From NCBI GenBank assembly GCA_031281115.1, contig JAITFV010000266.1, positions 1 to 23,489 on the forward strand: DNA of 23,489 nt, written 5' to 3'. This stretch comes from Oscillospiraceae bacterium (GTDB taxonomy: Bacteria > Bacillota > Clostridia > Oscillospirales > Ruminococcaceae). Made by a program: the position numbers and the translations under genes. Below are positions 1-14,754 of the stretch, piece after piece (the first letter of the stretch is position 1; every line of letters begins with the position of its first letter). Below the pieces are notes generated by a model, which saw nothing but the letters and a program-made list of their open reading frames with translations, was not told where the DNA came from and ran no database searches.

Positions 1-103
1 CCATTTGACCGCCGTTGGTGCTGTTGCGCGGAAACTTTGCAACATTATTTTTGTTATTCTCCTTGAAAATCGTCATTATGAAGCAATTCCACCAAAGAAA
101 TAA
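1..103 (+). CDS. IS110-family transposase, C-terminal end (partial)
   Basis: Reading from base 2, the plus strand is open for 33 codons to a TAA at 101-103; the gene runs in from beyond the left edge. The visible peptide includes TAVGAVARKLCNIIFVILLE followed by NRHYEAIPPKK. This resembles the end of IS110/IS1111-type (Transposase_20) recombinases, where a conserved (V)ARKL stretch is followed by an I-F/Y-x-hydrophobic-L segment and a short tail with a PY-like end. The DEDD catalytic part would lie off the window. The family call rests on the C-terminal signature alone. The element it belongs to appears to have landed in spoIVA (see 242-307). Confidence 0.7.
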   Translation, partial: HLTAVGAVARKLCNIIFVILLENRHYEAIPPKK

Positions 104-241
104 ATATTTATTCAAAAAGAGGTTGACATTTTATAGCTGGTCTTTCCTGCTCTTGTATTTACCCTTGTAAAAGGGCATAAAAAGTGGACTAAAGTAACAA
201 AGCTCCTTAGCTTTCGTTAACCTTAGTCCTATAATATCGTA
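1..241 (+). mobile_element. Right end of an IS110-type insertion sequence inserted in spoIVA
   Basis: The transposase end (to 103) is followed by about 138 non-coding bases before spoIVA sequence resumes at 242-307 on the opposite strand. This tail can fold. It has a CCCTT/AAGGG hairpin at 162-175 and a longer imperfect inverted repeat at 186-229 with arms GGACTAAAGTAAC and GTTAACCTTAGTCC. The exact right boundary is inferred from where SpoIVA similarity stops, so it could lie a few bases either side of 241. No target duplication can be judged without the left end. Confidence 0.6.
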
Positions 242-307
242 TTAGCCGATATAAATATTACCGTCCGTCCTTTGCGCGATATCCTGATAAATTGATGTTG
301 TAGTCAT
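242..307 (-). pseudogene. spoIVA: Stage IV sporulation protein A, first 21 codons only (interrupted)
   Basis: The minus strand starts with ATG at 307 and reads 21 codons to TAA at 244-242. The peptide contains SIYQDIAQRTDGNIYIG, which aligns with the conserved SpoIVA N-terminus (family pattern: IFKDIAERTGGDIY[IL]G, immediately followed by the VVG.VRTGKS P-loop). Here the P-loop is missing: after the last Gly codon the frame enters sequence attributed to an IS110-type element. SpoIVA is the ATPase that polymerises on the outer forespore membrane as the spore coat basement layer. Its position just downstream of sipL fits the known SpoIVA-SipL partnership. The rest of the gene probably lies beyond the element, outside the window. 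A weak AAAGGA site lies about 12 bases before the ATG. Confidence 0.82.
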
Positions 308-314
308 ATTTTCA

Positions 315-461
315 TTAAGTCCTTTCTTCACCAACGAGGAATGAAAACAACATTTCCCCCGTTTCAGTTGTATTCTGTTTCAAACTTCTTTCCCTATGTC
401 TTCCTTGCACAAGCAAGTTGTAAAACAACGTTTTCCCCGTTTCAGTAATGTTTTGTTTCAC
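315..461 (-). CDS. 48-residue tandem-repeat mini-protein between sipL and spoIVA
   Basis: A GTG at 461 follows a very strong Shine-Dalgarno sequence (GGAGGAGG, next to the sipL stop codon) at about 9 bases. The frame runs 48 codons to TAA at 317-315, and spoIVA starts 7 bases further on. The product is two imperfect copies of one unit: KQNITETGKTLF..LLV in the first half and KQNTTETGEMLF..LV in the second, offset by 26 residues, so the DNA repeat keeps frame. It has no signal peptide, no membrane segment and no cysteine. I do not recognise the family. Its position inside a sporulation operon and its ribosome binding site argue that it is translated, probably in the mother cell with sipL and spoIVA. 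The alternative is that the 78-base duplication is accidental and only mimics a gene; the second unit also has its own TTG preceded by AGGGAAAG. Confidence 0.6.
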   Translation of the reverse strand: MKQNITETGKTLFYNLLVQGRHRERSLKQNTTETGEMLFSFLVGEERT

Positions 462-475: not shown

Positions 476-2053
476 CTATACTATCGGAATCAGCAACATC
501 GAAGGAAATTCAACTCTGTCGCTCTCAAGGTCGTTTTCGGTAATTATAGCATCCGCACTGGTATTATACCGCTTGGCAATTCCCCATATGTCCTCGCCGT
601 CCTCTGCGTAATAAAGTTTCAATGCGTACTCTGCGCTCTTTTCTTTCGGTTTTTCCCGATTCACCGTTATATCACGGATTACATTGATTGAATTAATCAT
701 GTACAAGCAAGCGTTAAGCGATAAATTAACTCTTATATCTACCTTGCTTTCGCCGCTGAGAGTAAATGCTGTCTGCGTCACCTGCAAGTTCGGCTCAATT
801 GAATACTCGGAAGAGAGCATCGGAACCTCGAGCACAAGCTCGAACGGCTCTGATTTTTCTATGAGTGCCGGCATACCGCCGTCAAGCGCCCCAATCGCTT
901 GTATGTTTATCTGCCCGGTAATCGTAAGCTCGCTTGTACCGCGCGCCCGGCAAACTACGTTGCTGACATCACAGCGCGCATCAAAGACTTCCGCAAGGCT
1001 CCCTTCAGTGCTCTCAACGGCGCTTCTGAGATTAAACGATTGCATGATAATATGCGGCAGTGTTTCGGCTTTAATCGTTGCAATCGTAAACGAGCTCTCG
1101 AATTCCGTAGAGTAAATGTCCGATACAGGCGAAACATTGCTTTCAAGATGCGCGGTGACAGAGCAGTCAAGAGTTAAATCGCAGGCGAAAATCCGCGTTT
1201 CTCCCGCTTCGCCGGGTCGCACCTCGAGGTCGCAGTCCATCATCGTGAAATTCACGAAACAAATGTGATTTTCGGTCACGCCCTCCAAATCCATGATTTG
1301 ACTTACCGGAATCGTTGCTTCCATGACCTCTGTGATGTTAGAACCGCCGTCATCTTCGCTGTCGGAACCGCTTATTATATAAAAGGCTTTGATTTGCGCC
1401 TCGCCTTTAACGATTACTTTGTTCGCGATTACTTTAAAATCAGTAACAGCAATATTGGCATCATGGTGAATTATACTGATTGCGCCGGAAACCGACGCGC
1501 CTGTTTCTATATCTTCGCGCGAAACAAACTGGCGGGAGGTCATAAGTTTTTCGCCGCAGTAAGACAGCGCGGTTTTCTTAGTCTCAACGCCGAGTCCTTC
1601 CGCACCTGTAATCATCTCGGTCTTTCTTGCACAGGTGACTTTAACTTTGCAGCTTACAGCACCGCGAACGTCGATTCTGCGCCCGCTTGTCGCCCGACAG
1701 TTGCAATAATCTGTTTTCGGCAGAATAATCACGGTCGCGCTTTCCGCGGGAGCATTTTTAACCAAATCGATTGTCTTTGAGTAAGTGTAGCGCTGTTCAA
1801 TGCAGTAAATGCGATTGCTCCCCGCTGTAAGGTACAGCACCTTAATATAAACCACACCGTCGCAGAAAAACTGCGAACCCGAAACGCTGTGCGAAATAAT
1901 CGCCGGCGTAAGGGTGCATTTTAATACTTTAAAAATGTCGGGGTAATAATCCGGCAGAACATAATCAAATTCCACCCCCTGCTCCGTCTGTCCGTCATAA
2001 ACGACCTCGTTCAGAAAAACAGGCTCTTTGTTGAGATTAAGTTGTAATTCCAT
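476..2053 (-). CDS. sipL: SipL-like SPOCS (DUF3794) / LysM spore coat assembly protein
   Basis: 525 residues, close to the length of Clostridioides difficile SipL. The N-terminus (LNEVVYDGQTEQGVEFDYVL then PDYYPDIFKVLKC) is the hallmark start of this family. Two or three SPOCS/DUF3794 beta-rich repeats fill roughly residues 30-450. The C-terminal 50 residues form a LysM module (YYAEDGEDIWGIAKRYNT, ending SMLLIPIV). SipL is a mother-cell protein whose LysM domain binds SpoIVA and is needed for coat localisation on the forespore. Finding spoIVA directly downstream supports that job here. The ATG at 2053 has GGAGGT five bases upstream. A sigma-E-like promoter lies 45-75 bases before the start. 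With spoIVA broken, this protein may have lost its main partner. Confidence 0.88.
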   Translation of the reverse strand: MELQLNLNKEPVFLNEVVYDGQTEQGVEFDYVLPDYYPDIFKVLKCTLTPAIISHSVSGSQFFCDGVVYIKVLYLTAGSNRIYCIEQRYTYSKTIDLVKNAPAESATVIILPKTDYCNCRATSGRRIDVRGAVSCKVKVTCARKTEMITGAEGLGVETKKTALSYCGEKLMTSRQFVSREDIETGASVSGAISIIHHDANIAVTDFKVIANKVIVKGEAQIKAFYIISGSDSEDDGGSNITEVMEATIPVSQIMDLEGVTENHICFVNFTMMDCDLEVRPGEAGETRIFACDLTLDCSVTAHLESNVSPVSDIYSTEFESSFTIATIKAETLPHIIMQSFNLRSAVESTEGSLAEVFDARCDVSNVVCRARGTSELTITGQINIQAIGALDGGMPALIEKSEPFELVLEVPMLSSEYSIEPNLQVTQTAFTLSGESKVDIRVNLSLNACLYMINSINVIRDITVNREKPKEKSAEYALKLYYAEDGEDIWGIAKRYNTSADAIITENDLESDRVEFPSMLLIPIV

Positions 2054-2188: not shown

Positions 2189-2360
2189 TATAGCTGATTA
2201 AATTGAAAACACTAAAGTGTTTTCTCGGCAAGCGGCGCTTGCCGCCGTGCCATCAGCACGGACAATCAGCTATGCAGTCAAGTTAAACCGCCTTTGGCGG
2301 TTCGCGGCGTATACGTCGCGGGCTAAAAACGCTTTAGCGTTTTTAACTTAACTGGCTATA
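2189..2360 (+). repeat. Two joined multi-hairpin repeat elements (TATAG...CTATA)
   Basis: The first element (2189-2273) starts TATAGCTGATT and ends AATCAGCTAT. The second (about 2271-2360) starts TATGCAGTCAAGTTAAA and ends TTAACTTAACTGGCTATA, so the two share the central TAT. Inside are successive hairpins: GAAAACACT/AGTGTTTTC, GGCAAGC/GCTTGCC, CCGTGC/GCACGG, AACCGCC/GGCGGTT and AAAAACGCT/AGCGTTTTT. The first 66 bases are identical to 14719-14654 (reverse strand), and the last about 35 match the reverse strand of 12330-12370. This, with the promoter sites at 2098-2180, is what fills the gap between sipL and the GH5 gene. Confidence 0.88.
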
Positions 2361-14618: not shown

Positions 14619-14653
14619 AAATTTATGCCCCTCTTTGCGCTCCTGTCCGTTTT

Positions 14654-14719
14654 GATGGCACGGCGGCAAGCGCCGCTTGCCGAGAAAACACTTTAGTGTT
14701 TTCAATTTAATCAGCTATA
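14654..14719 (-). repeat. 66-bp hairpin repeat upstream of spmA
   Basis: On the minus strand it starts TATAGCTGATTAAATTG and contains GAAAACACT/AGTGTTTTC and GGCAAGC/GCTTGCC hairpins. It is identical over 66 bases to 2189-2254 and lies in the same orientation relative to its downstream gene. The other end is absent. Confidence 0.92.
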
Positions 14720-14754
14720 TTAGGATTATATTCAAACCGAAGGAGGTTTAAAAC

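Follow-up and report, generated by a model that had tools for sequence, protein, structure and literature searches.

The stretch of DNA analyzed here (the window; 23,489 nucleotides) corresponds to positions 1-23489 of contig C93 of a draft genome (G000) assembled to 2.18 Mb in 333 contigs and 87% complete. Its left edge carries the end of an IS110-family transposase, a short stretch of other DNA, the first codons of spoIVA, and sipL (Table 1). SpoIVA starts spore-coat assembly, has an essential role and is under sigma-E control. Read on the minus strand from the ATG at position 307, the spoIVA frame gives MTTTSIYQDIAQRTDGNIYIG followed by TAA, and the similarity to SpoIVA ends sharply after codon 21 (window 307-245), as stated in the original prediction. 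A 27-bp repeat (window 304-330) covers the spoIVA start codon and has at least 41 further matches in the bin.

Table 1. Features at the left edge of the window and the basis of each assignment.
Feature	Position	Strand	Basis
IS110-family transposase, C-terminus and stop; rest lost to contig end	2..103	+	similarity to the G213 and G229 copies
Conserved 3' end of the IS110-family element	123..146	+	end motif copies in other genomes
Left end of putative element E, meeting spoIVA	147..244	.	between IS110 end and codon 21
Hairpin in the E end	186..229	.	z -4.95, window 147-245 folded as DNA
10-bp arm AGGACTAAGG, 15 nt outside GG (246-247), with inverted mate on C62	221..230	-	arm search
spoIVA 5' piece, codons 1-21	245..307	-	frame reading and comparison with G015, G132 and G345
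sipL, directly upstream of spoIVA as in G015, G132 and G345	476..2053	-	domain match and comparison

The remaining 474 codons of spoIVA are located on contig C62 of the same draft genome and start at the same codon, which bears out the proposed interruption just before the P-loop. The C62 frame (476 aa, of which 474 residues match SpoIVA) is open throughout, contains all three SpoIVA domains and is 77% identical to SpoIVA of G015, a genome of the same genus and the nearest relative of this piece. A genome-wide search with the SpoIVA ATPase family gave one match, on C62, beginning at profile position 19. A second complete spoIVA, considered earlier as a possible explanation of the fragment, was not found in searches of this 87% complete genome. 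A 29-residue SpoIVA-like match (27 bits) was also observed at C3:2604-2690. In three genomes of the same genus (G015, G132, and G345) spoIVA is unbroken behind sipL, and sipL, the 21-residue start and the C62-like part follow in a row; the 21-codon frame, which might have been a separate gene, is there the start of a whole spoIVA. Since one and the same glycine codon joins the start to the C62 part in the three relatives, the break is not a chance match, and the shared gene order indicates that spoIVA was broken after codon 21 with nothing visibly lost. The spoIVA break in the window genome is real. Its junctions are exact to the base, and the gene reads in frame once the insert is removed. 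The bases common to both junctions are GGC, at 245-247 in the window, which displaces the junction formerly placed at 241-242.

We next considered the DNA adjoining the break. The translation of window 2-103 (plus strand) ends in HLTAVGAVARKLCNIIFVILLENRHYEAIPPKK and a stop, and is 95% identical over 20 residues to the G213 transposase. By similarity this end belongs to the IS110-family insertion sequences, but it is not the DNA that meets spoIVA. The 10 other copies of the family's end motif, TATAGCTGGTCTTTC (with a single mismatch in G213), spread over 7 genomes, each lead into different DNA, and this places the end of the window copy at 146, leaving about 98 bp before spoIVA; an IS end directly touching spoIVA, as in an IS110 insertion into the gene, was thus not found. 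The presence of a transposase beside the motif was confirmed in G229 (two copies, 99% identical over 1524 bp) and in G213, where about 290 bp separate the matching transposase end from the motif beyond it. No other match to the window transposase was detected in its own genome. A reading of window 75-1 (minus strand) as an integrase start was rejected, as this stretch is antisense to the IS110 transposase. The earlier view that the adjoining sequence comes from a unit with an IS110 transposase therefore stands in part: the transposase does lie beside spoIVA, but bases 147-244 belong to another element, here termed E.

When window 1-262 was used as query, 17 of 396 family genomes matched, own genome included, the others only within 1-146, and 147-244 was unmatched in the 395 other family genomes. 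Written in the direction of spoIVA, the junction in the window is ...TTTATATCGGC TAATACGATATTAT AGGACTAAGG... and that on C62 is ...CCTTAGTCCT TACTTGACATATTCC GGCGTCGTGGGA...; outward from GG, both sides give AGGACTAAGG after exactly 15 nt. When the letters were shuffled 200,000 times, allowing three core positions, 38 shuffles gave a symmetric run of at least 10. Recombination by large serine recombinases (LSRs) follows a core-dinucleotide rule. Judged from sequence, a GGC core with symmetric arms and in-frame continuity is the geometry of LSR elements.

On the C62 side, the junction is flanked by a 152-aa frame that weakly resembles a phage-family transposase (E-value 5.6e-7) and by a 123-aa tape-measure N-terminus (phrog_10613, E-value 8.6e-43) that resembles phages recorded from Oscillospirales-type hosts. 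The tape-measure gene is truncated by an 87-bp MITE-like repeat with at least 38 copies in the bin, and copies of this repeat also occur at window 2189-2274 and 14644-14723. This truncated gene is the one phage structural gene seen for E, whose middle is missing from the assembly, given that the left end of C93 overlapped no other contig in our search and the right end of C62 branches. Contig C70 was rejected as a continuation of E: it shares the terminal 119 bp of C62 in the same orientation and then diverges, an assembly branch. The shared stretch (C70 1-119, L068) is the tape-measure start, so that this phage piece occurs in at least two contexts. No site-specific recombinase gene is present on C93 or C62, and the 19 PF07508 (recombinase domain) matches in the genome gave no link to E. 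The exact arm pattern had no hits in IMG/VR, and window 1-262 gave 10 weak DNA matches to phages (E-value 0.9). No other genome with an insert at the exact codon-21 site was found in the family and order surveys, within their limits.

To place this break in context, we surveyed spoIVA in related genomes. SpoIVA was matched in 128 of 148 family genomes, with an element split only in the window genome and G029. At the order level, at least 351 of 394 genomes match the SpoIVA ATPase domain, and at least four (G396, G544, G554, and G682) are split by elements. Several further candidates were not counted as element splits: in G027 and G635 the pieces overlap, with a frameshift; G007, G009, and G479 are cut by contig ends; both pieces of G412 lie at contig ends; the match in G442 starts at residue 61; and G549 is without a full-protein match. 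A scan of named genomes gave 194 loci with LSR relatives, and among the best 80 of these, 22 contain SpoIVA_C: its start lies 28-330 bp beyond the LSR match in 21, and at the remaining one (L210) spoIVA is whole. Three of the 21 correspond again to G396, G554, and G029.

Taken together, LSR-bearing inserts were identified at two other spoIVA sites in a minimum of 23 further genomes. The first, site B (...ETEV/SPIVG), is occupied in ten genomes (L164-L172 and G544), and the second, site C (...PSIH/M), in thirteen (twelve named loci and G682); G755, occupied at both, enters the count only under B. Carriers known by name include Flavonifractor sp. An10 and An306, Pseudoflavonifractor capillosus An827, and Papillibacter cinnamivorans DSM 12816. 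Both pieces of the gene lie on one contig and strand in nine genomes, 4.8 to 46.3 kb apart (4.8 kb in G544; 7.1 kb in G770 and G772; 16.0 kb in G755; 19.6 kb in G757; 24.2 kb in G764; 30.7 kb in G765; 41.4 kb in G682; 46.3 kb in G766, which is Flavonifractor sp. An10). For L171 and L202 no 5' piece was recovered; in G554 this piece reaches the end of a contig, and in G770 it is present on two contigs. G759 (L169) carries an additional, degenerate spoIVA stretch with seven stops, and about 11 kb separate the LSR from the 3' piece in G682. Resolvase and Recombinase domains were identified by Pfam in the LSRs of L119, L160, and L115, all from site B or C inserts, and precomputed domain assignments cover the proteins matched by the G396 fusion; the remaining site B and C loci are called by LSR similarity. 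spoIVA is a recurrent target, and the split pattern reaches well beyond the window genome.

In the better-resolved LSR inserts of these relatives, arms are found 8-17 nt outside the core. They are clear in G682 (run of 14), G766 and G762 (11), and G029 (10), and others show weaker arms, with runs of 6-8 and agreement at 15-22 of 30 positions; these are the best results over many core positions and, unlike the window pair, have no shuffle control. In G755, G757, G763, and G764 arms were not found or were misplaced, the script having chosen weak alignments. In G755 the 5' piece stops at site C; an LSR is followed by a short middle remnant of the gene, HMMRADITTEI, and another LSR is fused at site B to the 3' piece. 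spoIVA of this genome (L274:585-18027) apparently contains two consecutive intervening elements, both equipped with an LSR of their own. Among viral sequences, none of 31 LSR loci in IMG/VR holds a SpoIVA piece, and two IMG/VR stretches that matched SpoIVA patterns were not confirmed. GenBank phage records gave five SpoIVA matches, all in unannotated 'Bacteriophage sp.' entries; three span 3-476, and two start at residues 17 and 96 at the record edge.

Site B differs from site C in the fate of the recombinase frame. In the ten site B genomes the LSR frame runs into the SpoIVA C-terminal domain, giving fusion frames of 624-652 aa (nine named loci and G544), and the split coincides with the border between the SpoIVA middle and C-terminal domains. 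The two fusions run against Pfam, L119 and L160, both contain Resolvase, Recombinase, and SpoIVA_C (76/76). The common phase at site B is one inherited arrangement and not ten independent events. In the six site C cases read at the junction, spoIVA bases complete the TGA that stops the LSR, so no fusion arises there. With the G396 fusion as query, which favors fusions, 78 of 87 proteins at an E-value of 1e-150 or better contain SpoIVA_C (8000 candidates scored). The spoIVA 5' piece continues into an element-coded tail (G396, ...LEYKMKVCGRMRGHIAVKFCA; G029, ...LQYKMKV...), and one LSR without SpoIVA_C, P0078, ends in ...SHTEVSTYKMKVSEKLKGKFLNFEIMCNFTI. By its sequence this one protein looks like the un-integrated form of a site B recombinase; a tail of this type is absent from the other eight of the nine proteins without SpoIVA_C, and a recombinase tail was not seen by eye at 13 free LSR relatives. 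Sequence comparison places the SPbeta recombinase YokA among the relatives with solved structures; a single chain combining it with YotN has been deposited as well. In L160, the site B recombinase is immediately preceded by a 63-aa frame (L160:5163-5354, plus strand; no Pfam match) that is a candidate directionality factor, and a similar reading is visible upstream of the LSR in L164, L165, and L170.

We also compared the conservation of the two gene parts. Identity of the C-domain to the SpoIVA of the window genome was fitted against that of the N-part over 41 intact genes. Of 23 interrupted genes, 18 scatter around the line (mean residual -0.15 points, t -0.09), and the 'Bacilli' MAGs G772, G773, and G774 lie outside the fitted range, 9 to 19 points under the line. 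The lack of a mean conservation loss in interrupted pieces fits continued use and would also fit recent insertion. As for cargo, the sampled genes include a citrate-type transporter (G544); helicases, a DNA methylase, and a further recombinase (G757); a molybdopterin-type oxidoreductase and an ABC transporter (G755); and DarG-like, DpdF-like helicase, dynamin/LeoA-like, and WYL proteins with a weak reverse-transcriptase match (Flavonifractor sp. An10). The 46-kb An10 insert (L277-L279) thus carries genes resembling anti-phage defence (DarG-like, DpdF-like, LeoA-like). Ten cargo proteins compared with PHROGs fell into transposase, integrase, invertase, and helicase families, with an endolysin-like domain in An10 and a weak terminase match for one helicase, and gave no clear capsid or tail family.

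The skin element in sigK of Bacillus subtilis and Clostridioides difficile is likewise a phage-like element that splits a mother-cell sporulation gene, and it has a short shared core and inverted arms like E; in C. difficile, attL and attR with inverted repeats and an LSR have been described (PMC5025042). E has in common with skin a precise split that is restorable in frame and a shared core with inverted arms, and differs in that its target is spoIVA, its recombinase is not seen, and its excision would be deduced by analogy. Other intervening elements are SPbeta in spsM, vfbin in spoVFB, vrin in spoVR, and yin in yabG (PMC10747680, PMC4191935), phage-like inserts with a recombinase whose target genes differ from spoIVA. 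By contrast, gin in gerE of Bacillus cereus ATCC 10987 is a non-phage element with serine recombinases and a 9-bp shared sequence (PMC5595907); it resembles the site B and C inserts, whose sampled genes are mostly not phage-like, but differs in gene and recombinase family, and the in-frame LSR-SpoIVA fusion is found only at site B. The sporulation genes reported as interrupted in these sources are sigK, spsM, spoVFB, spoVR, gerE, and yabG (PMC10747680, PMC5025042, PMC4191935, PMC5595907). spoIVA does not occur in the main texts of PMC10747680 and PMC4191935, appears in the available text of PMC5025042 only as an expression marker and in that of PMC5553647 only as a CRISPR self-target, and is absent from the main text of a systematic LSR target survey (PMC10083194). 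We found no title on an interrupted spoIVA in the open-licence literature, which is weak support for its absence in print. The best reading is a skin-like intervening element in spoIVA, a target gene not named in the literature found, as far as the available texts go.

We consider it probable, on balance, that an element of the LSR kind, similar to skin and probably derived from a prophage, integrated site-specifically into spoIVA of the window genome and split the gene at codon 21. E would have recombined at GG inside the conserved P-loop region, leaving its ends on C93 and C62, which we infer to be linked by this one element and joined to it by the action of an LSR. The IS110 element would have landed later, about 98 bp inside one E end, and a repeat would mark the truncation of the tape-measure gene near the other. 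By analogy with skin in sigK, E would exit in the mother cell during sporulation, rebuilding spoIVA there.

The rival that survives best, which we regard as doubtful, is that the same insertion is permanent: E would be decayed and immobile, spoIVA dead, and normal spores not made. The E recombinase is lost from view, one end of E has IS110 close by and the other a truncated tape-measure gene, and the survival of sipL and further spore genes after such a loss may be temporary. Against this stand the fully open 474-codon piece, with its three domains and its identity to a same-genus SpoIVA, and the two att-like ends of E, intact to the base. Since both pieces are open, the junctions exact and the frame restorable, a removable skin-like insertion appears at least as likely as a dead gene. 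It is very unlikely that E is instead a transposon or tyrosine-recombinase element that duplicated GGC: the 3 bp at both junctions and the unseen recombinase gene would suit it, but the inverted repeats of a transposon are expected at its termini, whereas the arms of E lie 15 nt inside its ends, symmetric to GG, like those of the LSR inserts in spoIVA of relatives. An assembly or binning artefact, with the C62 piece misjoined or derived from another organism, is very unlikely. In its favor, C93 and C62 are not physically joined among the 333 contigs, the C62 end is a branch common to C70, and the rlu-like and obg genes beyond spoIVA on C62 are absent within about 5 kb (G132) and 3 kb (G345) downstream of spoIVA, the G015 contig ending there; but the breakpoints are complementary to the base with matching arms, the C62 piece has its nearest relative within the genus, and comparable splits lie on single contigs in nine other genomes. 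Finally, that IS110 itself cut spoIVA, as originally proposed from a transposase ending 142 bp from codon 21, is hardly credible, as its conserved 3' end is base 146 and the other element fills 147-244.

Extending the reading of E as a removable LSR-kind insertion to the relatives, we tentatively propose, as a joint and rather unlikely claim, that removable LSR elements dock recurrently in spoIVA of gut Clostridia and some Bacilli, and that the site B recombinase reports integration. In the widespread site B family the attachment site would lie inside the recombinase's own 3' end, so that integration would swap the recombinase tail for the SpoIVA C-terminal domain, in frame. A chimera of recombinase and SpoIVA could then be produced in cells with the element integrated, and the excised circle could encode a recombinase that keeps its original tail. 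A form that reports integration might bias excision or tie it to coat assembly. For an element to alter its recombinase through such a fusion when it integrates would be unusual. Should spoIVA be interrupted by removable elements on a regular basis, some seemingly asporogenous gut bacteria may be conditional spore formers, and a 'broken spoIVA' in genome surveys would be a poor sign of lost sporulation.
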